A stretch of DNA of 64,000 nucleotides from Cyclospora cayetanensis. Its lineage: Eukaryota > Apicomplexa > Conoidasida > Eucoccidiorida > Eimeriidae. The stretch lies in NCBI RefSeq assembly GCF_002999335.1, contig NW_020312579.1, positions 124,001 to 188,000 of the forward strand. The letters run 5' to 3'. The notes below the pieces were generated by a model that saw only the letters and a program-made list of their open reading frames with translations, searched no databases and was not told the origin of the DNA. Position numbers and translations under genes: made by a program. Below, in pieces: positions 13,201 through 45,536 of the stretch (its first letter is position 1; each line of letters opens with the position of its first letter).

Positions 13201-16200
13201 CCGAGACCACAAAGGACTTGGCAAAGGCTTTGGCAACTCAGTGTGTTGTATTCAACTGCTCGGAGATGATGGACTTTATTATGATCGCAAAATTTTTCAA
13301 GGGCTTGGCATCATCAGGGGCTTGGTGCTGCTTTGATGAATTCAATCGTATCAACATCGAGGTTTGTGAAGTTCACCCCAATATTATCCCAGCAAATTTT
13401 TTCTGGGCCTGGTTAAATACTGGTCCGTGGCAAAGCGCCAGCACTTTCGCCTTTACGAAACTGTTTTGACTGCTCCTGACAATCAGGTAGCCTTCTACGA
13501 TGCTTTTTTCAGGTTTTATCTGTTATAGCTCAGCAGCTTATAGTCCTCTTTGGTGCGAAAGCTCAGCTCTTGAGCTACCAATCAACGTTGGAGGTTGATT
13601 TTGAAGACTCACAAATTTTGGTGCAGCCAACATTTAATGTATTTATTACTATGAATCCTGGATACGCAGGCAGAACAGAACTCCCTGATAACTTGAAGTG
13701 CCTATTTAGACCGATGGCTATGATGGTGAGGCATTTGCTTTTCACTGTCTCCGCATCGCATTCAAATACTCCTTACTTGTATAGGCGCACAGCTGCCTGA
13801 CGTGTGACTCTAGCGCTGGCTTCATCTATAATTGTTCCACTCCTCCACGAGCACGTCCATACGCAGGTGCCAGATTACTCTATGATCGCGGAGATCATGC
13901 TATACAGCTTTGGATTTGACCAAGCACGGGAGCTCGCAACAAAGATGGTTGCAACCTTCAAATTGTCTTCAGAACAATTATCCTCTCAAGACCATTATGA
14001 TTACGGGATGAGAGCTGTGCGATCGGTTATCAACGCTGCAGGAGTTTTAAAGCGCAAGTGCAAGAGCATGGATGAGCAGCAACTCCTGCTGCAAGCCCTC
14101 CGCGATGTCAACGTTCCAAAATTCTTGTCTCATGACCTGCCGTTGTTTGAAAACATTGTTGCAGATTTGTTCCCTGGAGTTGAGGTGCCGCGATCCGACA
14201 ACCAGCTCCTTCAAGAAGCCCTTAGACTCCAATCTGAGGCGCTTCGGCTGCAGCCAATTGAGCCTTTTATGGCAAAGGTGATGCAGCTCTATGATACTGT
14301 TCAGGTCCGCCACGGCATTATGCTTGTAGGGCCTACGGGTGGAGGAAAGACAAGCAGTTATCGCTTGTTAGCGGCTGCCATGACTGAACTTCATAAAATC
14401 CCGGGATTCGCACAGGTGCGGTTGATTCCCTTCTCAGCTATCGATGTTTCAGTAATCCAGACTTCTCTCTCTATAGGTTTACTTTTCGATTCTGTGTAGG
14501 TAGCCGCAGTTTTCCTTGCCCTTATTGTTGCGCGAAGGTGCACTTAGATGTGCTGAACCCTAAATCCGTGACCATAGGCCAGCTCTATGGATGCTTCAAT
14601 GAAACAACGCATGAGTGGACTGATGGTTTGGCCGCCGCCCTCATTCGTCAAGCAATCCGTGATACAACGCAGGATCAGCACTGGATTATGTTTGACGGTC
14701 CCGTAGACGCTCTGTGGATTGAAAGCATGAACTCTGTTCTGGACGATAACAAAAAGCTCTGCCTCAACTCAGGAGAAATTATTGCCCTCACTAATAGACT
14801 GGTGGTGATGTTCGAGGCAAGCAGAATACGCACATACAACATGCCTATTTTACAGCTCACTAGTAGTATGCCTGGTGAAATCTGTGCAACTTCCAACGCA
14901 CCCGTACGATGGTACGCTCTCAGGTGGAGGACCTATCTGTAGCCTCGCCGGCTACTGTAAGCCGATGTGGCATGGTGTATATGGAACCTGACGTCCTTGG
15001 TTTCCCTCCACTCATTAATTCATGGTTGAAGGGCCTCCCTCCAGTGTTCAAGGATGAGCACAAGACACTTATTGATGACCTCTGCTGCACCTTTCTCCAC
15101 AATGGGCTTTGCCTTCTTAGAAAGCAATGCAAGGAAATCATTGCGACAGTAAATTCCAATCTCTGTATGACTTTTCTCCGAATGTTGGGCTCTGTATGCT
15201 CGCGCTACCGTCAAGTAAACAGCACAGTCAACGAGGAAACGGTCGACACCCTCTTTGCCAGAATACCGGCAGCTTTCATTTTTAGTTTCATTTGGTCTTT
15301 TGGCATCACAGCAAATGGTAAGTAGACACCCGTTTTCATAAAAGTACACCACTGGGGCTCCTCAGGGTAAGCAGTGCGTAGGAGATTTAGCCGGAGCTAA
15401 GATGAGTGTTTGCGCGCTGTTGCGCTGCAAGGGAGTGGTAGGCAAGTCATCGATCAATGGTTACGAAGCCGTGTGAAGGAACATGGGCTAGATATTGGGA
15501 CCATACTACCTGATGTTAGCCTTTACGATGTCTGCTACGAAATCAACAACCATCGATGGACTCCTTGGGTGGATACCGTACCGTCGTTTGTTGTTCCAAA
15601 AGGCGCGGCATATGAGAATATTGTCGTTCCTACCTTGGACTCCATCCGTTTAGCCCATACATTTTCTTTGTTGCTCCTCAATGGTCACCCTGTTTTATGC
15701 GCTGGCCCGAGTGGTACTGGAAAGTCAGTTATTTTGACGGATCTGCTGTTATTGACGTTACCGGAGAACTACGAAACACATATAATGACGTTTTCTGCAC
15801 ACACTCGCGTAAATCAGGTTCAAGTAAGCTCTAGTGCACTCTCAATTCCTTTTATCAAAGTGAAGAATTGGCGAACAAGCTTTGAACCATAAGCCGTTTG
15901 CGGTCTCCTAATCCACCTTCATTTCTTATCTGACTACCCAATACGAGCGGATGTTCTGCCTTTTCGGGAATCATGTACTGATAGGACTTGCTAGAAGCAA
16001 AACTCGAGAAGAGACGCAGAGGAATCTATGGTCCACCTGCAGGTAAAACTTGTATTTTCTTCATCGACGATCTCAACATGCCACGAAAAGAAGAATTTGG
16101 AGCCCAGCCACCGCTGGAACTCTTGCGGCAATGGTAAGTGGAGTCTTGTGTACAACCTAGCATGTGAACTGGGGATTTCCTTTACGCTCCCGCCCCTACT

Positions 16201-19200
16201 GGATACACTCTAGCTGCTAACAACTTGACGTGGCCTTGCGACATTTCAAAAATTATTGCCTAGGTTTGATCACAAAGGATGGTATGATCGCAAAATGCTA
16301 GCCTTTCAACAAGTAGTGGAAGTGGGCCTCGTCGCTGCCATGGGCCCCCCTGGGGGCGGACGTAACGAAATATCTGCTCGATTAATGAGGCATTACTGCA
16401 TCTTGGCATTTGATGAGCTTCAGCGAGCTTCAATAACGACAATTTTTCAGACATTGAATAGGCACTGCTTTCAGCACTTTTCGCAGGACATTCAGGTTAG
16501 ACGAGACAGTTCACTAGCTAAAAGATCACTGACATTTGCAGAATTCGTCGATCCGAATCTTTGAAGCAGGAGCGTGAAACCATAACGCATGGGATCACGG
16601 CATTTTGCATAATTCATGGACAGCCATCGCTAAGACCACGTCTGAGCACTTAATACCTAGAACAGGTGCTATCGATTCTCCTATTTGGTTATTTGGGTTG
16701 GAACTCAGGCCCTCACAGACTCTTTGGTGTGCGCGACAACTGACCTCTACTCAGAAGTCACTATGACCTTGCTTCCCACACCAACGAAATCTCATTATAC
16801 ATTTAACCTGCGAGAAGTTTGGAAGGTGTTCCAGGGTCTTGCGCCTTTGTCCCCAAAGGCAGTAAAGGAACCGAAAGCGGTGAGCGAATTCTAGAGGTCT
16901 ATTGGAGCTCGGTCACTCATAATCATTTATCGAATCTTACTAAAACGACGTGTACTGAATAAGCTAGATGCTTGTTGTTGTTTAAATGAGTGAACACTCC
17001 CGAATTATCGAGGACTTTTACAAACTACATGAAGGAAAGTGGAATACAATAGAACTACTTCCGAAAAAACTCAAATAGTGACCAAACAAATGTAGTATAT
17101 GCGATGCCGCAATATGAAATATAGCATATAGTCTTCCTCAATTCCTCAAAACCTCAACTTCTTTACTCTAAGTTCACGGAAAATAGCAGCTTCCTGAACA
17201 GTGCCCATTTCTCCACAGCGGAGGCACGTCCTGTAAGATAAACCTCAGCGCAGAGCTGGCGGCATGACCAAACCTGAAGGGAGTACTTAACTTCACATTT
17301 AATTACATTACATCCGCTTGAACAATCCTACTAAGGTGAATGCAATGGAGGAAGGTATGTCAACCGATGCTTGCATCCGCAATGCCTGGGTAATGCAGGT
17401 TATCCGATGCTGGGTCCATGAGACCTGCCGCGTATTCTGCGATCGTTTAGTTGACGACATAGACCGCGAATGGTTCCACGAAGCCCTGCACCGACACATT
17501 AAACAAGCTTTTGGCATTGAGTTTGCCAGTGCTAAGGAAATTTCATCTCTGATTTTTGCTGACTTCACAGAACAGACGTCCGAGCGGCATTACTTGGTAT
17601 GTCTAGCTGCACCCATCACTTCAAGTATGCAACATAGACGAGAGGCCAAATATTGTGTTACTAGGACCAGCGCTTCTTGGGGTGTTCCTCTTGGTCAATC
17701 TACTAATTGCTAACAATGAGATGTTCTGTATCCATCGTCCTTTTTCCTGTGAGTTAGGAAGTCACCTCGCCTGCAGAATTAAAACGAGTAATCGAAGATT
17801 ATATGCAGGAGTATAATAATGCCTCATCAGTTCCAATGCAGCTCGTGATGTTCGCCGATGCATGTGCTCATATCACGAGGATATGCCGCATACTTCGGCA
17901 TCCCTCTGGTCATGCACTGCTTCTTGGAGTGAGAGGATCAGGGAGACAGTCTCTCAGTCGCCTTGCAGCGTTCATTATGGACACAGAATACTTCAAAGTT
18001 GAATCTGGCAAAGGTAATTCAAGCGCAGCGGCGGACTTCTTAAAGTAACGCTTCGGGATCCTGGTTTTGTGCTCCGTGCAGTGCGTGCACTGGCGTGTCT
18101 CCTTATGCCAATATCCACTTTCATTCTTCTCAAATGAATCGATTCGGTATTTGCAGGTTATGGAATGGCTGAATGGCGCGAGGAACTAAAGAAGTGCTTT
18201 ATGAATTCGGGTTTGGAAGGAAAGGTGCAAACACTCGTTTTGTGCGATTCCGAAGTACTTGGGGAACCTATGCTCGAGGACATTAACAGCGCCCTTAGCT
18301 ATGGAGACGTCCCCAATTTGTATAAAAAGGAGGACATGGAAGAGATTATGAAAGTTTTTAGGTGGGCTTTATTCTTAGTGTCTACTTAGCTGAAGATCAG
18401 TGTAAAACAGTTTCGTGCAGTGTTTTCTTGGCCCGTAGTGCGCTATTCCTAGTTCGCTTATGCGCCTTCAGGTTGTACTGCAAGCAGCAGGGTATAAACC
18501 CATCAAGAGGAAACATCTTTAACGCTTACGTGAAAAAAGTGAAGGCCAATCTTCACATCATTATGGCAATGAGCCCGTTGGGGGAATATTTCCGTACTTG
18601 GCTCAGAATGTTCCCTTCATTAACAAACTGCTGCACGATTAATTGGTTTTCCGAGGTAATTATGTTGGCTTACGATAATTTGAGGGAGTTTATTAAACAA
18701 AGATCTTTTTATTGGACGCTCCGGACAGAGATATGCTCAAAAAGACTGTTATCTGAGTGAAACTTCACACAACCAAAGAAGAAAATTTGCGTCACTATCT
18801 TTTTGTTGCTGCTGCTGTCTTTCAGTGGCCATCAGAGGCGCTAGTCTCTGTTGCTCAGATAGAAATGGAAAAATGCGAAGTGTCAGTTGATTCTCAAGAG
18901 CAGGTTGTAGATGTCCTCCAGGCCATGCATCGCGGCGTTCAAGAAACTGCTGCAAGCTATAGGGAACAGCTTAATCGGGCCATGTATGCGACTCCAACAA
19001 CGTTTTTAGAAATGCTGAAAGCCTTTATTCACCTCGTTCGTTCCAAACAAGTGGAGCTAGTTACTGTACACGAACGCTTTGAAAAGGGAATAGGAAAGCT
19101 GGAAGAAACAGCGGATCAAGTAGCTGAAATGCGGGCCCAGCTTCAACAATTACAGCCTGTTCTACACGCTACGTCTGAGGAGGTAAATTTCTTGAGCAGC

Positions 19201-22200
19201 ACAGGAAGAAACCAAGTACCTGGACACACGAATTTTTCTATCGGGAGTAAAAGTCTTCCCCAATTAGATGGATGTACTGTACCTATGCCCTACAGATGCA
19301 AATAAGTGGCTCTCCAAACGATAGTTGAAGTGCTGTCCCAAAACTTAGGTGGACGGCGATATTGCTACGGCGCAACAGCTGTTTCTCAAAAACAAGGTGT
19401 TGCGCTTTTGCAGGTTGAGAAGACTATGATACAGATTCAGAAAGACCACGCTCTTGCAGACGAGACCAAGCAAGTAGTAGCGCATGATGAAGCGGTCGCT
19501 TTGAAAAAAGCAAAAGAGACACAGGCTCTCAAGGATGATGCGCAGCGTGATCTAGACGAAGCACTTCCGGCACTTGAAGAAGCTGTTGAATGCGTTAAAA
19601 AGCTGAAGTCTGATCATATACGAGAGGTTAAAGCCCTAACAAAGCCACCCTCGGGCGTCATTCTTACGATGGAAGCAGTCTGTATCATGTTTGGGGTAAG
19701 TCGCGAGCCTACTGATTTCAAAACGATATGTGCGCCAAAGGGCTCAACATTGGACTACACAAGCCTTCGTGGTCTCGAGCGTTTTCACCATTCTAGGTTC
19801 TTCCAGTAAAGAAGCCAGACCCTTTCAAACCTGGTGTAAAGATTGAGGACTACTGGGAATCAGCTCAACACAGGCTTTTAAAAGATCCCAAGAAGCTTTT
19901 GGAAGATCTTTTGAAGTACGATAAGGTCAGTATCACTAGGATGGAAGAACCAGTCAGACTGGTCAAGTGTCAAGTTTAGCTTAGGTGAACGACAATTTTT
20001 TGGCTTTTGGCACCCGCCTCTGCAATTCGTGTCAGAGTAACAGCAAGTCTATAGCTTCCCCAAAGCCCTCACTGTGGTTTCAACAGGACAATATTCCAGA
20101 TTCAATCATTGCAACAATCAGTCCTTATATTGATAGAAGTGATTTCGATCCAGCAGCTATTCGGAAGGCATCGGTAGCTTGCGAGGCGATCTGCATGTGG
20201 GTGCGGGCGATGTTCAAGTACTACAACGTCGCAAAAACCGTAGCACCAAAGCGAGTCAAATTACGGCAAGCTGAAGAAGAGCTGCGCGCAACAATCGAGA
20301 ATCTCGAGAAAACAAAGGCCAGACTCAAGGAGGTAGAGGATAAAATTGAGCGGCTCGCAGCGGATTTTGCCCTAGCCGTTGATAGAAAGGTGATCACACA
20401 AGCATCACTAATTGATACAGCTATACTCTGCACACCGAGCCTTCTGTGATAATCTAGCTAGCCACCGACGGCTGCCTGTTTAAATAATGCGAGGCCCGTG
20501 TAGGAAAAACAATTATAAAGCTAATGCAGGCATTAACTGAAGCCACTGAGAATACCCGCTTCCAACAAATATACTATAGTGATACACTGTAGTGACGCCT
20601 TTTAAATGGCCTTACTGATAGGATAGTGAACGCGCAACACGTCGGCTTGAGCGCCTCCCGTGCATGAACATGCGAACGAGACCCTACAGATAAACAAGCC
20701 AATACAGATTATGTGGGGACACAGGAACAACTTACCATAGATATTCAAAGCTGCAAGAAAAAACTGGAAAGGGCCGAACCACTTCTGGTGGGACTGGCAG
20801 ATGAAAAGCACCGTTGGGGGGAACAGGCACGCCTATCAAAGGATAATTTTCGCTACATCTCAGGTCGGTTAATTGTCATTTTTTGGAGCGTTTCACAAAG
20901 CGATGACATGAGAGGAAGAGTATTCTACTTATATCTGTCTTATTTTCATTTTTTGTGCTCAGGACACTCTCTTATCAGTGCTGGAATGCTCACATATGCT
21001 GGGCCCTTTACAGCGGCATATAGGGGAGAGCTTAATACTCAGTGGTCTCAGCGGCTGCTTTTGAACCATCTGCCATTCAAACCTACATGCGGGCTACAGC
21101 AGTTCTTAGGTAAACAGTAGACAGCATTTACTACGCTGGTGTAGTATGCGCTGTAATGGCGGCAGTCATAGAATTAATTTGTGTACAGGCTTCACTTTGC
21201 GGGTACAGGCGACCCTGTAGTTATTAGGCAGTGGACAGTCTGGGGGCTACCAAATGACGAATTTTCTATCCAAAACGGAATCATTATAGATAAATCAAGG
21301 CGATGGCCACTAATGATAGATCCCCAGGTGCGCCAGAAAGCTGCAAGGAGTGTCAGGATGGCTGAGCGGCGCATGTTTAAATCACTAGTGAATGCTGCTG
21401 CACCCAATTTCGTCTTGCATCGCGCTTACACACAACGTTTCGAACGGGCGCGTTATTCCCAGGGACAAGCGAACCGCTTCATTAAGAAAACTGGAAAAAA
21501 CACAGATGTTGGATTTGAAGTTCTGAAGTTATCGGATGCAACTTTCATGCGGGAACTCGAGCTTTCTGTTCAGTTGGGAAAATGGGTTTTAATTGAGCAC
21601 GTATCAGAGACGCTTGACCCTTCTCTTGACCCCATTCTTCTGCAGCAAAGGGCCAAAAGTGGATCAGGTGGGAATGGCAGGAGGCACTTATGTGAGCAGT
21701 CTTCGAGCCAGCACAATTGGCCCTCAATAAATGGTGATATCGAGTTTCAGTTATGGCGCATTATTTGCTATAGGCTACACTATTATGCTAGGAGACAAGC
21801 CTATTCCATGGGGCCCTACTTTTAAACTTTTTCTAACCACGAAGCTTCCCAACCCCAAGTTTCCCGTGGACACGTTTGTCAAGACCACGGTTGTTAACTT
21901 TGCAATTACCCAGGAAGGTGGCATTACACTGTGGCACACGTTTCCGAAAATTGCATAACAGGCTGCTAAGGGTATTTCGCAAGCTTTGGCCATCGAATCC
22001 TCGGGGTAGGAATTTCTCCAACAAGTGTTCCTTCGGCATCCTTCGCTACTTCAGGCTTAGAAGACCAAATGCTGGGCCTCGTTGTGACCAAAGAAGCCCC
22101 ACAGCTAGAAGAGCGAAAGGCTGCGCTAGCACAAAGTAGCGCAGATATGCGTCGTGAGCTCAAGGGAATCCAGGACAAAATCCTTCAAGTCATATCACAG

Positions 22201-25200
22201 TCGCAAGGGAACATTTTAGATGATGAAGTATTATTGACAACTCTAGCCGCATCGAAGCAGACTTCGGAAGAGATTCAAGAAAAGGTTCGGGAAGCCGAGT
22301 TAACTGAGCACGAGATTGACGAAGCACGGTATGATTTACAAAACTTGGTACAACTCGTGCTTCTTGGTACCTTCCGCCTTCCAGCATATGCAATGTTGTG
22401 AATGGCTAATTTCTTTCGTCAGGCAATGCTACAGGAAAGTGGCATCGCGATGCAGTCAACTCTTCTTCAGTCTCGTCGAGCTGGCGTGCATCGAGCCTAT
22501 GTATCAATACTCTCAGCAGTGGTTCCAAAATTTGGTTTCTGTAGGCCTAAGCGAGGTCAGGAGGGGTTTGGGGATATAGTACTCGGCAGTGTCCAACTGG
22601 TTCAAAAGCTCTTTGCGTGCTGCATAGCCCTGTATTATATTCTCCAGTTGGCACCGCAACCTGTCAGGCAGATAGCTCTATGGTTGTTTTTTGTCGCGCT
22701 GTGTCCAGGCTTCCCCAACTTCGAATGTAGAGCAGCGTACCCTGTCGCTGGTGGAGCATATCTCATACTTAGTGTACCAAAACGTATCTAGGTCTCTCTT
22801 TGTGCGGCACAAACTCTTGTTCGCATTCGCCCTCAGCCTGCGAGTATGTTACTTATATCTTTCTCTTTCCCTTTAATGTTAAATATACTGGTGTGAATGT
22901 GCAAGTGAAGCACCCAGTCACTATATTTGGTAAGCAGGAATCCAATCTCGGCTGCTCAGAAAATATCCAAAGGAACCCATGTATAGATACTATAGCCCGT
23001 AGGCAGTCTTTCCCTTGACAGGTTCAAGCAAAAACTCCAGTGGATCCCGCAGAGCTACGATTCTTACTGACGGGAACAATAACTGGAGCAGGCTCAGAGG
23101 AAAACCCTATTTCGTGGCTAACGGATAAGCAGTGGCAGGCCATTTGCGAGCTCTCGCATCTGCCTGCTTTCAATGGACTCGCGGCTTCTTTTCATGCTAA
23201 CGAAGAAGGATTCCAGAGGGTTTTCGACTCACCTCAAGCAGATCAAGAGCCATTACCCGGTCGTTGGCAATCTCTTAACCCCATTCAGGTATGTTTCTAA
23301 AACCTGACCCTTCGCGCAGTCATTACAAAACCGTATACGCAAATTTGCATGAGCATCAATTTTGAAACATGTGGCATTTAAATGTTCCTATTCCCTGGCT
23401 GTTTACTACCTTATTTTCAGAAAATGTGTATCCTGCGGATACTTCGCATGGACTCCCTGACAGCTGCTGCAAGCAGCTATGTGGCCATGGAGCTGGGTGC
23501 TCGCTTTCTGGAGCCACCTCCATTTAATTTATCGCAATGCTATAAGGACTCCACTCCACAGACTCCGTTGATATTCATTTTGTCGCAAGGTTCTGACCCA
23601 GTATCTGAGCTCCTTAGCTTTGCAAAGGAAATGAAAATGAGCAGGCGCTTTGAGTCCATATCCCTCGGTAAGAACCCCACCCAGCACAATAGTTCGCGCT
23701 AATTCTGGTGTGAGCTTTTTGAACACTATCTAGAATTCGTCTCTGTTATGATCGATGCCCTTCTCTATTAATAAATTTGTTTGCGCATACTTCGGTAGAC
23801 GTGCTCTATTATCTGCAGGTCAGGGCCAGGGACCGAAAGCAGCAAAACTTATAGAGGATGGCTGTAGTAGAGGAGGATGGGTTCTCCTGCAGAATTGTCA
23901 TCTTGCTGCTTCGTGGATGAATGAACTAGAACGGATTTGCGCGCAGTGGAATCCCGAAGAAATACATCGAGATTTTAGGTTTGATGCATTAATTCACTGT
24001 TGTTTTTTGTGTCCTTTGCAAAATATACGAAAGCTAAGTTTGTACCCAAAGGCTAAAAAACCGATACCGACAGTTGTTTTTTGTTGTAGGCTCTGGTTAA
24101 CATCTATGCCATCGTCTTCGTTCCCAGTATCTGTTCTACAAAACGGCGTGAAGATGACTAACGAGCCTCCAAAGGGTCTGAAGGCCAACTTGCAGAGGCT
24201 ATACTCTAGCATAGACAACCGCCAGCTCAAAGCAACACAGAAGCCTTCACAGTTCAGAAAGCTGCTTTTCGCATTTTGCTTCTTCCATGCAATAGTTCAG
24301 GTCAGGGCTTGTTAGCAACAGGCCTCTGCTCCCTCGTTTGATGATCCTCTCCTATTCTTGCATAACAGCGTTTATACATCCATCCAGGCAACTTTCTTCT
24401 TGAATATTTTCCCTTGTCACGTTGTGCAACACTGAGAGCCTGTTTTATATGTTTTTTCTTCCCCCTAGGAGCGCCGACGTTTTGGTCCCATAGGATGGAA
24501 CATTCCCTACGAGTTCACCCAGGATGACCTGGTTGTCTGTCAAAGACAGCTAAAGATATTCCTGGATGTAAATGAAAAGATTCCATACAAGGTAAAATAC
24601 CGAAAGTCGCGAAAACCCTGAGCAATTAAAGAACAAGCGGTTGAGCACAGACCGAACAGCTGTCTGAAATTCTACGGGCTGAAATACGCAGCCATCCAGG
24701 GTCTGTGCGTCAACAGGTACTGAGATTTTTGGGGGCTCATATAAACTACGGCGGGCGTGTTACTGACGCAAATGACAAACGGCTCATCGATGCCATCCTT
24801 AGCACCTATGTCAACGAGAGGCTTATTTCCGAGGTTTGTTAGCTCTATTAATAATTAGTTTTTGAACTGCCATACCAAGGGCTGTCACACAAAGAGACCG
24901 ATGCAATACTGCCCGCGCTGCTAGTTTTTCGACCTCTTAGGGTGAAGCATTCAAATTTTCACGTTCCGGAATTTACTATTGCCCCGATGAAGAGGACATA
25001 GAAGGTTTCAACAAGTATATTCAATCACTGCCGCCGAACGCTCAACCGGAAGTGTTCGGCTTACATGAAAATGCGAACATTAACTGCGCTAAAATGGAGG
25101 GAAAGGTATGCTAGACATCTCACGGTGATGCTAGTGTATCCTCGCCGTCGGGGTATAGGTCAGCCAGGAAGCTCTTGCTCATTGGATTTCAAGGCGCTTT

Positions 25201-39453: not shown

Positions 39454-42400
39454 ATGATGGAGCCCTGTACCCATCGACTTTTGGCACTCTGCGTTTGTGT
39501 GTGTTTTCTGGTTTGTCTGCGAATATTGTTACCAGTAGATTCCTTTCCATTATATTTAGAAAACCATTCATCTCAGTCTCACATACCACTTAGACACCGG
39601 CAGGAAAATAAAGAAAAGAGACGAGTGACGGCCGACCGTGATACGGACGCTTCCTTTGGAGGAGCACCAGCCACAGCCGACCCCCCAGTGCATGCAAGCG
39701 AGAGGACACAAGATGTGCATCCGGCATTTACTGTTCAGAGAGCTAATCACAAAAATTGGAAACTTCACACTTACTCTCTGCAGCACAGCCCTCAGCAGTC
39801 TGTCCCATTGCAGCATAGGGTACTTACTCACCCAAATGAAAATGTTGTATCGCTCATACCTTCCTGGCGCATACTCGAATTGGAGGTACCAAGGGGACTG
39901 CCAAAGGATCTTAGTAACCTTAACAAGGGCAATGAGCGACCATTTTATGCAAAGCATCAGGTATGGCTCGATCAAACGGGGGGCAGAAGGCAGCACTTGA
40001 GGAACCATAGTTTGCCGGAATTAGGCAGTCTCAAAACACAACCACTCACTGATTTCTATCCAGAACGATGGGGCTTTTCAAAAAAACGAGGTTTGTTCTC
40101 AGAAAAGCCTATTGTTTCACTGCAAAAGCCATATGTCTGGACTTTGTTCTTCAAAGACAACGGAGCAAAATTTATCAGATGGGCATCTGTATGGCCGAGC
40201 GTCCAGAACTCGAGTACAGCAAAGTGCTTCCGGTAGTGCTGCATCTGTAAGGAACAGCCTTAAAAGCAATATCAAAGCTGGTGAGGCTGAGATCTACGCT
40301 GGCGTAGGCATTGAATCGGCAAGGCCCCATTTCGAAGAGAGTGTCGGCCGACATGAGATGTATGAGCTGCTTAAATGGAGAATGCAGCAGCGTGCTCGGC
40401 TTTCCATGAACCAGAGTATGCGTAATCGAGATGAAGACGAAGATCCTCCGCCAGACCCTACAAAGGAGCTCCTTCTTAGCCCTGAGTCGGAGAAGAAGGC
40501 ATCTCTTCAAGCTTCAGTTGATTTCGGCCACAATCTGGTTCTTACACCGGACGAAAAGAAAGAGCTGATACACCGAGTGAATAGCGAACTTGCTAAGATT
40601 CCCAGGGTACATCGTATATTCCCAAGTGTGGAAGGCTTGCTATTCGTTGAGACCTTTGAAGGGTCAGATGTGTTTAGCTCTTGGATTACTTCCAAAAGTC
40701 CTACACATACCGGTAGGCGTGACCTTGTGGTCGTAATGCCAGTCTTGGTAGGCTGATGTGATGAATTACCGTGGACTTGTTGAAAGGGTAGTGTACGAGA
40801 TGGTAGAATGATTGGCTTTGTGGCGCAAAGAACGCTTCGCGTCACCTTCAGAGAGTGCAGCCTCAACTAATCCTGCTGACGTCGTACCATTCTCTGCGTG
40901 GTTCATATTTCTTTGCGCAAAAGCCTAATGCCATATCTAAACCTGCACTCCTGCGGCTGGCAGTACCGCAGTCACTTACGGATTCCTGCACACGATGATG
41001 CGACCGACTGTTCAACACTCCGCAGGTCAGTGGCGTCACATGCTGCGTCCCCCACAAGCAATTGAGGAGGACCACGGCATCATGGCGGCTTCGCAAGTAA
41101 GATGCCTCGTGTTATACTCTTTGTGCGTAGCCGCATCTGCGTATTCTATGTTATTCACGCAGTTTAGCACAGAGTTGCACCGCTACACTTAAACTGCTGG
41201 CTGTTAGTCACCAAGTTAAGCCTCTCCGCTCACGATCAACCTGATTCTGAGCGCATCGGTGAATATTAATTTCAGGGGTTTCGTCATGCAATTAGTACTT
41301 TGCTACCTTCGCGCTCCTTGCCTTCTCCCGCTAGGCCCTTAGTAATTCAGTATGAGCTGCAACAGTATTATCCGGATTTTGAATGCGGAGGAGGCTATCT
41401 GACTTTCTTTCAGTCGGATGGAAAACTGTCACTTTACCGCTTCAATGGTGACACTCAATACACACTGAGATTTGGTGCCGACCAATGTGGCATCCGACGT
41501 GAAATACTCCTTAAGATCACTCGGGTGTGCCCAGCTACTGAAAGGCGGTAAGCATCCTTTCTGCTGTTGCTCAGATCTGCTAAATCTGTCTTTAAAAAGA
41601 GGTCAATGGAGCTAAGAATTCCTAGTGTGTATCTCTGCATGCTTTTCAGCATCGTGCATTCGTTGCACCCACCTCTGGCACTTCCCTATAGCGACCGCAC
41701 ACGCTTAATCACTTTTATCTTAAAACCACAGGGAACATTCAGGATCCTTTTAGACGGAAGGACGGCTCGCAAGGTGACCTTTCCACCGCAAATAATGTAA
41801 CTGTCGATAGAACCTAGCTACCAAAATTATTGCTGCTATATTTTTGCTCATGACCACCTGCACTCAGGGGACTTTATTTGATGGTCTCAAGCCGCCGTGG
41901 CCAAGATCAAGCCAGATGCTTGAAGTACACACAATCTCAGCTAAACCTCGATATCCTCCAGCCACCCAACCGATCATGATTTAACAGATTACGAGCGATA
42001 ACTAAGCGCACGAGTTTATAGCAACCATTTGCATGCGTACGCTTGCTATAAACGCTCACATCACCTTGGATCATACAAAGTTTTACGGTTGCCTTCAGGT
42101 GCTGCCAATTGATGTTCTTAGCTTTAATGCTGTTGGCTTGACATTTATGGCGATTGATACGGGCACATTATTTGATAACATTATACTAAGCGACAATATC
42201 TCAGCAGCTCAGAGATTTGCGAGGGAAACCTTCTGGGTGGGCAAAGAGGAATCGTTATATCTCACGCGGGCTTCTGAACTAGAGTGAAGTGCCACATCAC
42301 CAGTCTGAACACTAGGCTGCCTAATGATGTGCATGTTTACAAAAATATTACTAATATAGTTAAAGGGGCTCACCCAGGTGTATGCACTCTGACACCCTTG

Positions 42401-42836
42401 TTAAAACTGGTGTTTCGCTGTTGTGGGGATTCAGAAGAGAACAGAAATAGAGCATCAAATGGCGTCAGTAGCCCTCAAAACGCGGAGTGCTGTCCGTAAA
42501 GAGATCCGAAGAAGGCAGCAAGAAGCGGAAGCGCTCAACGTAGTCGCCTCTATATCTAGGACTGCATCCTATAGCTCTTCAGATACTGGCACTAGGAAAA
42601 GCACGAGTGCATCAGAGAAGACGCATCCAGAAAGGCTTCTCAAGAAAGAGGCAGAGAACTTGCATTCAGGAAAGGCGAATTTTAGTGAAAAGCAAACTAA
42701 GCAGGCAATCCTTCAGGATCTAAGAGGAGGTAAAGCGACCAAAAGTTGTCGGGCTTCCAGTTGGAACGACCAAGACACCATTGCGGATACCATCTTGGAT
42801 GGCTTCTTACTACTTAGTTCACTGCTATTAGGGTGA
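39454..42836 (+). CDS. calnexin/calreticulin-like ER protein lacking the P-domain
   Basis: Family members are ER lectin chaperones for glycoprotein folding. The ATG at 39454 begins a signal peptide (LLALCVCVCFLVCLRILL). Exons: 39454-39960, 40220-40712, 41026-41096, 41276-41547, 41650-41773, 41868-41924, 42099-42236, 42435-42836; all phases agree, giving about 687 residues. After a unique region of about 280 residues comes the lectin fold: LLFVETFEGSDVFSSWITSK, then GQWR, RHAIST, PLVIQYELQ, FECGGGYL and TLRFGADQCG with both cysteines of the conserved disulfide, ITFILKPQGTFRILLDG, and finally AVGLTFMAIDTGTLFDNIIL. The arm of Pro/Asp repeats that should sit between the last two segments is absent. 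The tail (134 residues) is basic and ends in FLLLSSLLLG; no KDEL is seen. The TGA at 42834 overlaps a perfect gtgagt donor, so another exon completing a membrane anchor is possible. Confidence 0.8.
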
Positions 42837-45536
42837 GTAGGCCTCGCAAGGCACCAGGCTATGATTTGCTCAGCCTTTCAAGACAACCCAACCTCGCTTA
42901 TACCCGCGATGGCAACTAAACAGAAGAGTTCATTGTCGCCAACGAGCACCTATGTACATTGTTCATTTCCCTAGTTCAGAATTTTGTTGCACCACAACTC
43001 TGGGACCCTGCCTTACTCCCATCTTTTATTGCGAGTAGGCTTGGACTCTTTTGGCGATGCAACGGGGTCCCCGCATTCCGTCAAGGAAACACCTAAGACA
43101 TGTCATCTTGGTCCTCAGTAAGGTGCTCATGCACTAAACTACAAATCATCTTCCTTCGTGTGCGGACATAAGGCTCATTATGAGGAAACCTTGATATAGT
43201 AAAGAAATTGCAGATGTACTTGTGTTTGAAAGGATTCTTCTTATAATTACCTGCCTTTATATATCGTGGCATGCAAACATATTTTTTGTCTCGTAGATAC
43301 AGCGGCAGGTTCGTGCTACAATAGGCCTGCTATGTGTATGCTATTTTTGGTTGTTGGGCTGATGCAACTTATTTACTGCACGCCTGTTCTTTCGAGGCCC
43401 TAGGCAACTGCTGTAGAGTATGTGTAAGCTTTACCCGCTTGCATGGATGCTGTATCCCGGAAGCACCGACACCTCTCCAATGTTCAGCCCTGCATGCAGA
43501 AGCGAGTTCACATAAGCATGGGTGAACTCATTTGGCCTGGCACATGCTCTTGTAGACAAAGCATATTTCCTATTCATTGGCCTGGTTACGCTTTACTAGG
43601 CTTTGATTCTAACCCTATATATCTGCCAGTGAACCACGGGTCACTCAAACGAGTCTTACAGTATTGCTCCTGCGTAGTGCCAAAAGGACAATTGGGGTGA
43701 CCGCTTAGCGTGCTTTGGATATATGGAAGGAACAAGCCAGCTATATTTATCCCTGCAGTGAATATCCAATGCGTCAAAATTCCTTGCTTTACCTCTGTTC
43801 ATAACTGCGCTCTATAGCAGTCTTGAAATTCGTTGTTTCAGACAGTGCCTTTGGTTGCACGTTGGTAGAAGAACCGTCTCCGAAACCACGTAGAAATTCA
43901 CGGCTTGCGCAAATGAGCGCTCTCTGTTTTGTTTGCACGAATCAAAGCTCCATGTCATGGCCGCAGAAAAGTAACAAAGTGCATGACATATCGAGTACAG
44001 ACCATGCCAAAACTGTATGCGAACGGGGGACGAAGATGCGCCTACGCAAAGGGCTCTGAATTGAAAAAAAGGATTCCGACGTCAGCTCGCGTGTAGCTTC
44101 GAGCAAATATAGCTTCCTCCTCACATTGAGATTTTACTGAAAGGCCGAAGACATCAATTACTGTCAAAAGTTTGGGAGGGGGAGCTGTACGCATCCGAAT
44201 TTGAGGTTCCCGGCAAAACCTCGAGAGCCACCCTCTAATGCGCAAGGAGCTTATATTCAGATTATTGAAATCGTGTTTCTTATTCTAATACATGACGTGT
44301 CTGTTGGCCTTTGGTTTTCCCTTTGCCGGTAAGCCCCGCGGCTGTCTGCGATGCAGTAAACTAACAGTACTGGCTCTTATGCATTTCAGTGAGAAATATC
44401 ATTGTTATAATGCAATTATTAAGCAAAACAATTTGTTACATATCGCATATCCTATTGCCTTAGCCCTAAAAGCAGCATCGGGTCCCTCCATGCAGCGAAC
44501 TGGGCTGAGGGCACGATCGTGCACCGCCTGGAACAGGCAGCCCTCTGCTGCTAGCATTACCCTGCCAGAATGCATTTTAACCATTACTAAGTATGCAGAT
44601 TCCATATCTAATATAAGAACTAAAGTATTTTTATTCATTTGAACACATGGGGTAGGTCTGCATGCTGATTTACGTCGTCTCCTGGCATTCTTGCATCGAG
44701 AAAGTTCTACATTTATAGTTGGTCCCTGCAGCTGTTCCTCCCTTACTTGTAGATTTAGAAGAATCCGGTAGGACTAGGTGCGCTGTAGGTGCCGATATAT
44801 TTTAGATGGAATGCTCAGGTAAGGGTACCAGACTCTCATGGAGTGGCGAGTGATCGCCAGGACGAGTCTCATGGTACTTGCAATCTTAAAGCCTTCCCAC
44901 TCCAGTTCGGTGAAGCGGTATTAACCGTGTAATTAGAACTCGCATTTGTGGTCGTGTGACTGTATGGACGTCCTCAAGGTGCCGAGCAGCGCCATCCCTA
45001 GAACATACTACCGTACTCAGGAACGCAGTTTTGCACTCAGTACATTCGTTGTGCCGGTTCCATGGCGTGCTCTTCGGGTCCTGCATGTCAAGCAGAACTA
45101 TTTAGATTGTACATTCTGATAAGCAGTGTACTGCATTTTAGTAATCGGCGCGCAGCTTTGGTTGCTGCGAGTACACATTTAACGACATACCACGCACATT
45201 TAGTACATGCCTCAAAATAGTTTGCGTATGTGATCGTAGCCTAGACATCACACAATAGCCACCCTAGTGTGTAATATTACAATTCTTAAGGAATAGCTTC
45301 TTCACATGTTTTTAGATAAATAGGTGGGTATCTGTGGTGGGAGGGCGTTCACTTGAAGATTTGGGTGGCGTTTTAAGGCTCCTGTCTAAATTTCTGGTTT
45401 GATTCTCTAGCGCAAGCACACCGCACGGATTACACCGATGTTTGTCAGGACTCGAAGCGTCTTATCAAGCTGTAGTTCAATTGTACTGGAAGTGCTCCTC
45501 AGCTCTTCCCACATTTCCGTATAAAGCTACAACTAG
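42837..45536. other. intergenic or intronic stretch, no supported gene
   Basis: About 2.7 kb. An open stretch near 42980-43120 could be a further 3' exon of the calnexin-like gene, reached from the donor at 42833, but no family similarity supports it. Elsewhere only short frames without splice partners are seen. Confidence 0.4.

Follow-up and report, generated by a model that had tools for sequence, protein, structure and literature searches.

A calnexin-like protein without the P-domain in Cyclospora cayetanensis and its coccidian relatives, with probable loss of glucose recognition in Cyclospora and Eimeria

According to the excerpts of PMC7687155, the tip of the P-domain arm is absolutely conserved in the calnexin/calreticulin family and is the common docking site of ERp57, cyclophilin B and ERp29. 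What then can be said of a family member in which the arm appears to be gone? This question is raised by a gene on contig C347 of Cyclospora cayetanensis, lying within the 64,000 bases analysed here (the window; 46.8% GC, zero N), where a preliminary description had proposed a calnexin/calreticulin-like protein with the P-domain deleted. We confirm the deletion by in-frame exons, by a match to the Pfam family Calreticulin (PF00262) and by orthologues that lack the arm as well. The picture that emerges from sequence comparison is wider than the one proposed: a coccidian branch of calnexins is armless, and within it Cyclospora and Eimeria have gone on to lose the sugar site.

The spliced protein matches PF00262 at 1.3e-28 over profile positions 1-198 of 369 and matches no other Pfam family, and its seven coccidian orthologues match the same profile at 1.9e-15 to 6.3e-60. 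All 12 sequence matches in the PDB are calnexin or calreticulin (best 4.2e-20), and the crystal construct of the calreticulin lectin domain, 3o0v, is matched over residues 6-250 of 251. The match of the lectin domain is far beyond chance. The jelly-roll lectin fold was recovered, with a high-confidence predicted fold for the Eimeria stiedai orthologue, and the beta-sandwich is predicted to be intact. The Cys pair of the lectin site (C161, C195) and the calcium-site Asp (D437; Asp328/437) are present in Cyclospora; among the eimeriids the Asp is kept, as are both Cys where aligned. The E. stiedai model has helices at 209-224, 483-523 and 589-616. Nine coccidian proteins show, by eye, a helix-like segment directly in front of the lectin domain, and this segment is modelled as a helix in E. 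stiedai and Toxoplasma gondii.

Exon 4 (ending ..ITFILKPQGTFRILLDGRTARK), exon 5 (GTLFDGLKPPWPRSSQMLE) and exon 6 (beginning VLPIDVLSFNAVGLTFMAIDTGTLFDN..) join in frame across GT-AG introns (Table 1). Measured as the residues from the end of the ..VDG/N strand to the G(L/F)xxW strand, the resulting joint is 36 residues long, against 127-129 in two calreticulins and 167-168 in three calnexins. It contains no repeats, and the arm, with its type I and type II repeats and Met-Asp-Gly tip, is absent. Reading on from MLE into the intron between exons 5 and 6 leads to a stop, and no P-domain repeats were found when the six-frame translations of its 174 nt were read by eye, in keeping with the earlier view that this intron is too short for the usual Pro/Asp repeats. 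An assembly gap, named at that time as a possible refutation, is not there. One correction is needed: the arm is indeed missing, but GTLFDGLKPPWPRSSQMLE corresponds in its first half to the normal strand immediately preceding the P-domain, and therefore even less of the P-domain is left than the preliminary description stated.

Might a P-domain exon have been overlooked through an error in the gene model or the assembly? The exon joining was inferred from frame, splice signals and orthologues, not from RNA, and the NCBI model of this same gene is wrong elsewhere, exons 4-5 having been dropped. Nevertheless we consider such an artefact very improbable, as the intron contains stops, the window is without N, three P-domain patterns gave zero matches in six frames across the 64-kb window, and seven orthologues in other genera are also without the P-domain. 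Further, a diatom calreticulin with a full P-domain, searched against the whole genome, gave two matches only, both to exons of the present gene and both outside its P-domain. The pattern KP(D/E)DWD, with at most one mismatch, matched the genome 13 times compared with 9 for the reversed pattern, and no two matches lie close together; 8 of the 13 were read, and the two that encode KPEDW have no surrounding repeat. We reject a missed P-domain exon on the grounds of the intron content, the six-frame pattern scan and the orthologues.

Protein searches revealed the same family in E. stiedai, E. flavescens, E. praecox, E. mitis, Besnoitia besnoiti, T. gondii, Neospora caninum and Cystoisospora suis, and the lectin domain of Cyclospora is 58-60% identical to those of three Eimeria. 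The P-domain is absent in 8 of the 8 coccidian proteins spanning the joint (Cyclospora, three Eimeria, Besnoitia, Toxoplasma, Neospora and Cystoisospora). From joint counts and trees we left out the E. mitis protein (P0004, 260 aa), which ends before the joint, and the NCBI model of the Cyclospora protein (P0001), which is without exons 4-5. The joint is again 36 residues in E. stiedai, 39 in E. flavescens (P0027) and 17 in E. praecox (P0003), each from its own gene model, and 63-70 in the sarcocystids Besnoitia, Toxoplasma, Neospora and Cystoisospora. The linker of these four ends with NPAYF or NPSYF, which aligns to the end of the last repeat of ordinary calnexins (IPNPAYF in Penicillium P0036) and looks like a remnant of a formerly complete arm. 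As the relatives in Eimeria and Toxoplasma are armless too, the deletion looks like an old evolutionary change and not a sequencing error.

To place the coccidian proteins we built a tree from the lectin-domain columns with the joint removed, using 29 rows and leaving out the long-branched P0057, P0041, P0046 and P0054. The 8 coccidian rows fall on one side of a branch with support 98/92, opposite 12 calnexins and 9 calreticulins. It should be noted that the names of these groups were assigned in the present analysis. The 9 calreticulins form one group at 100/100 and the 12 calnexins one at 84/87, which is not decisive for placing the coccidian proteins with calnexin or with calreticulin. The simplest reading of this tree, which has no closer outgroups, would be that the arm was lost a single time, ahead of the split between Cyclospora/Eimeria and Toxoplasma/Cystoisospora. 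Among the proteins left out, P0057 from Barthelona sp. PCE is calnexin-like with a shortened P-domain of, by eye, about one repeat of each type; this is perhaps an independent and milder reduction of the arm.

We then turned to the sugar-binding site, for which excerpts of PMC9744295 give 14 conserved carbohydrate-face positions. Cyclospora and E. stiedai keep 5 of the 14 (C161, Y165, Y186, D193 and C195), E. flavescens 4, and E. praecox 2 of the 11 covered. The corresponding counts are 14 for C. suis, 12 for Besnoitia, 12 for T. gondii and 11 for Neospora, and among the controls 13, 14 and 13 for calnexins (the 14 being P0040, the position reference) and 10 and 9 for calreticulins, which score lower because the reference letters are those of calnexin. 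At K167, M189, E/D426 and W428 the separation is complete: every one is kept in all five controls and all four sarcocystids, and none in any of the four eimeriids (E. praecox has a gap at M189). Cyclospora has T, T, R and M at Lys111/167, Asp317/Glu426, Met131/189 and Trp319/428, respectively. Lys111 (K167) and Asp317 (E426) are required for binding, and Met131 and Ile147 (M189 and I204) form the base of the glucose cavity, according to PMC7687155 in the parts available. Since K167, M189 and E426 are kept in no eimeriid and I204 is replaced in Cyclospora, we strongly infer that glucose recognition has been lost there, and the eimeriid protein is probably unable to read glucosylated glycans.

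Instead of being lost, sugar binding could have changed. The eimeriid pocket might bind another glycan of the endoplasmic reticulum (ER), e.g. unglucosylated Man5-6GlcNAc2, and the protein might act in sorting or retention like ERGIC-53 or VIP36. We find this unlikely, as 9 of the 14 sugar-face positions are altered in Cyclospora (including K to T, M to R, I to K and E to T), His takes the place of Tyr165 in E. flavescens and E. praecox, and L-type lectins came far below calreticulin in the fold comparison (14 vs 31).

It could also be that the gene is decaying, arm and lectin site having eroded after loss of UGGT, with no important function left. The eimeriid stem branch is long (1.33 and 1.5 changes per column; the sarcocystid values are 0.72 and 0.56), and UGGT was not found in the assembly, as described below. 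On the other hand, the open frame and the splice sites are preserved over seven exons, identity to three Eimeria remains at the level given above across the lectin domain, and the E. stiedai orthologue has a confidently predicted fold; we therefore hold decay to be still less probable than a changed specificity. Cyclospora and E. stiedai are identical at 11 of the 14 positions, of which 5 are ancestral, and so 6 of the 9 changed positions are identical between the two, a share like the roughly 58% in the whole domain. With replacements no more shared than the domain at large, as decay would also give, the sugar face cannot settle the question of decay, and a new conserved face is not shown.

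Does the genome hold an ordinary family member that could do the usual work? We scanned the whole assembly (43.2 Mb in 392 contigs, completeness not given). The PF00262 profile gave one candidate, the present gene, and no match in any control genome. The stramenopile protein P0041, which has a calnexin-length arm and is named Calreticulin by one source, gave one match (3.8e-4), again the present gene, and two further matches at E 0.2-0.4 on its C-terminal tail. With these two queries and the diatom calreticulin, no second calnexin/calreticulin family member was found in the Cyclospora assembly; the preliminary description had suggested looking for a normal copy in related genomes. In each of the other coccidian species there is one family protein among the matches listed (candidates being limited by length and shared words), no search aimed at a second copy having been made there.

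The glycan pathway in the same assembly gave a mixed result. The catalytic domain of UGGT (PF18404) was not found, with two prokaryote controls matched, and neither was GH63 (glucosidase I), with three prokaryote controls matched, two of them above the cut-off. The GH63 N-domain, ALG6/8 and ALG10 were likewise not found in the assembly, and no control genome matched these models. STT3 is present, in three pieces, and a GH31 enzyme with WIDMNEPSVF lies at a single locus (C358:79898-83699). With GH31 present and glucosidase I not found, glucose trimming in Cyclospora may be unusual. An excerpt of PMC9713705 reports a GH31 orthologue in Cryptosporidium even in species said to lack terminal glucoses, and GH31 need therefore not mean glucose trimming. 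A joint loss of glycan glucosylation and the lectin site is an attractive idea that these results do not establish.

The gene model has seven exons on the + strand from 40133 to 42836, with GT-AG introns throughout and a single frame of 547 aa before the stop (Table 1). The NCBI protein 'putative calnexin [Cyclospora cayetanensis]' (P0001, 483 aa) is letter-for-letter identical to the window in 5 pieces from 40133 to 42833. Its exon 1 stops at 40663 and its exon 2 begins at 40965, and a jump from 41527 to 42102 leaves it without exons 4 and 5; it also loses the edges of exons 3 and 6. In all, about 68 lectin-domain residues are gone from it that are present in E. stiedai. The E. stiedai orthologue (P0002), with 145 of 251 residues of the lectin core identical to Cyclospora, aligns across the stretches that P0001 omits, which supports the seven-exon model over that of NCBI. 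The two ends of the gene are less certain than the interior exons. Elsewhere in the window, pieces of a dynein heavy chain (matches to AAA_6, AAA_7, AAA_8 and Dynein_heavy) lie at 13801-24312 on the + strand.

Table 1. Features of the calnexin-like gene, in positions of the window; the slash marks the splice junction.
Feature	Position	Strand	Remarks
Putative first exon with signal peptide (uncertain)	39454..40236	+	Upstream open frame starting MMEPCTHRLLALCVCVCFLVCLRILL.., hydrophobic signal-peptide-like start; link to next exon not established
Exon 1	40133..40712	+	Start as in NCBI model; N-terminal extension, helix-like segment before the lectin domain, first lectin strand GLLFVETF..THTG; donor ACCG/GTAGGC
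Exon 2, lectin domain, QWRHMLRPPQAIEEDHGIMAASQ	41026..41096	+	Alignment with relatives
Exon 3, lectin core and Cys pair (CGGGYLTFF ... YTLRFGADQC)	41276..41547	+	PF00262 match of the genome scan, 1.1e-10
Exon 4, ..RTRLITFILKPQGTFRILLDGRTARK	41650..41773	+	Missing from P0001; E. stiedai P0002 and E. flavescens P0027 align here
Exon 5, GTLFDGLKPPWPRSSQMLE	41868..41924	+	Segment normally leading into the P-domain
174-nt intron	41925..42098	+	At the expected place of the P-domain; stop codon in frame; P-domain repeats seen in none of the six frames
Exon 6, VLPIDVLSFNAVGLTFMAIDTGTLFDNIILSD..FW	42099..42236	+	Lectin half normally after the P-domain; matches residues 321-363 of diatom calreticulin
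Exon 7	42435..42836	+	Start after ..ATTCAG; long helical region followed by the hydrophobic C-terminal stretch ILDGFLLLSSLLLG and the stop codon

At the C-terminus, the Cyclospora, E. stiedai and E. flavescens models end in a hydrophobic stretch with 0-1 residues following, and in Toxoplasma, Neospora and Cystoisospora (3 of the 4 sarcocystids) such a stretch is followed by a tail of 22-72 residues. The Cyclospora stop codon lies inside a strong donor, GG/GTGAGT (42831-42840; donor at 42833), and it is possible that a last exon with the rest of the membrane helix and a tail was missed after it; none of the 15 acceptors listed gave a convincing candidate for a tail exon. At the N-terminus, the proteins of all four sarcocystids carry a hydrophobic stretch. 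In Cyclospora a signal-peptide-like open frame (MMEPCTHRLLALCVCVCFLVCLRILL) is seen at 39454-39580, 5' of the annotated start, and may be the true first exon.

From these results we propose, with moderate confidence, that the protein is a relict calnexin in which the arm and its recruitment of partners were lost and, in the eimeriids, the sugar site as well. The arm would have disappeared in an ancestor common to Cyclospora/Eimeria and Toxoplasma/Cystoisospora. Later, in Cyclospora and Eimeria, the residues for the terminal glucose and the mannoses of Glc1Man glycans would have been lost, with the beta-sandwich, the Cys pair and the calcium-site Asp staying. Such a protein, putatively anchored in the ER membrane through its C-terminal hydrophobic stretch, would not recruit ERp57, cyclophilin B or ERp29, because the tip of the arm is absent, and in eimeriids it would no longer read glucosylated N-glycans. 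In the Toxoplasma group the lectin site is retained, and binding of glucosylated glycans may therefore persist, without the client being passed to an arm-bound folding enzyme. The suggestion in the preliminary description that this should not be a standard chaperone is thus favoured by the sequence, and strengthened by the loss of glucose-binding residues in Cyclospora and Eimeria, which had gone unnoticed. We are more reserved about the full history, to which we give slightly less than an even chance: that the coccidian calnexin lost its P-domain once, and that the sole Eimeria/Cyclospora member also gave up glycan binding and kept its fold for another job. That this job is a glycan-independent polypeptide-binding (holdase) or scaffold function in the ER is more tentative still. 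Arm-truncated calreticulin suppresses aggregation more weakly, according to a passage in PMC7687155.

Some observations weigh against the relict calnexin that we propose. A tree of 33 rows leaves the monophyly of the coccidian proteins unsettled, the long-branched Barthelona protein falling among them, and the approximately unbiased (AU) test does not reject coccidian monophyly on that tree (p-AU 0.436). The replacements on the sugar face, which are not clearly more conserved than the rest of the domain, count in the same direction. In the NCBI Cyclospora model and in those of E. stiedai and E. flavescens, the N-terminus has no strong hydrophobic stretch, which weakens the case for the predicted ER location. 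The absences of GH63, the GH63 N-domain, ALG6/8 and ALG10 carry little weight, since no control matched for three of these four models; the controls that did match were prokaryotes throughout, and the absence of UGGT therefore lacks a eukaryote control as well. Finally, the assembly holds 19 thioredoxin-domain matches besides GH31, so that ER folding and glucose trimming may persist in part.

Recombinant T. gondii calreticulin has reportedly been made by others, to judge by the title of a reference. We found no paper on P-domain loss in coccidia among the matches listed, which covered titles and abstract beginnings, with subscription journals largely outside coverage, and the excerpts of PMC8200641, PMC13076163, PMC10242045, PMC4628283 and PMC6939170 contain nothing on a coccidian calnexin. 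According to part of PMC12019905, from whose main text the word calreticulin is absent, T. gondii possesses both ER glucosidases (I and II) and is without glycoprotein-folding quality control. Excerpts of a 2026 study of T. gondii PDIA3 (PMC13170237) state that SERCA there lacks the tail that interacts with calreticulin, and according to an excerpt of PMC7016017 the distribution of calreticulin and calnexin outside animals is patchy.

A natural armless lineage splits the idea of a lectin chaperone in two: Toxoplasma would have the sugar site without the arm, and Cyclospora and Eimeria neither, with the fold kept. A role of the calnexin fold without glycan or co-chaperone recruitment thereby becomes directly testable. 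Further, the database names 'calnexin' and 'calreticulin' on coccidian proteins promise functions that these proteins may lack.

Compared with calnexin (dog, PDB 1JHN; Pecten P0040; Penicillium P0036), the Cyclospora protein has no P-domain and a joint of 36 residues instead of 167-168, has K167, M189, I204, E426 and W428 replaced, and carries a long N-terminal extension, and the eimeriid models are without a tail. The L-type ER lectins ERGIC-53, VIP36 and Emp47 are far more distant, at 8-10% identity, PF00262 being the sole Pfam family of the Cyclospora protein. Calreticulin lectin constructs without the P-domain are known (3O0V, 3POS and 5HCA), but these were engineered from sugar-binding proteins, whereas the deletion in Cyclospora is natural and accompanied by a changed sugar site. 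The Toxoplasma, Neospora, Besnoitia and Cystoisospora proteins (P0033, P0034, P0028 and P0035) are armless like the Cyclospora protein, share the helix-like segment before the lectin domain and belong to one clade with it. Unlike Cyclospora, these four keep the 63-70-residue linker with NPAYF/NPSYF and have the key lectin residues intact, and unlike the eimeriid models three of them continue beyond the hydrophobic stretch into a tail of 22-72 residues.
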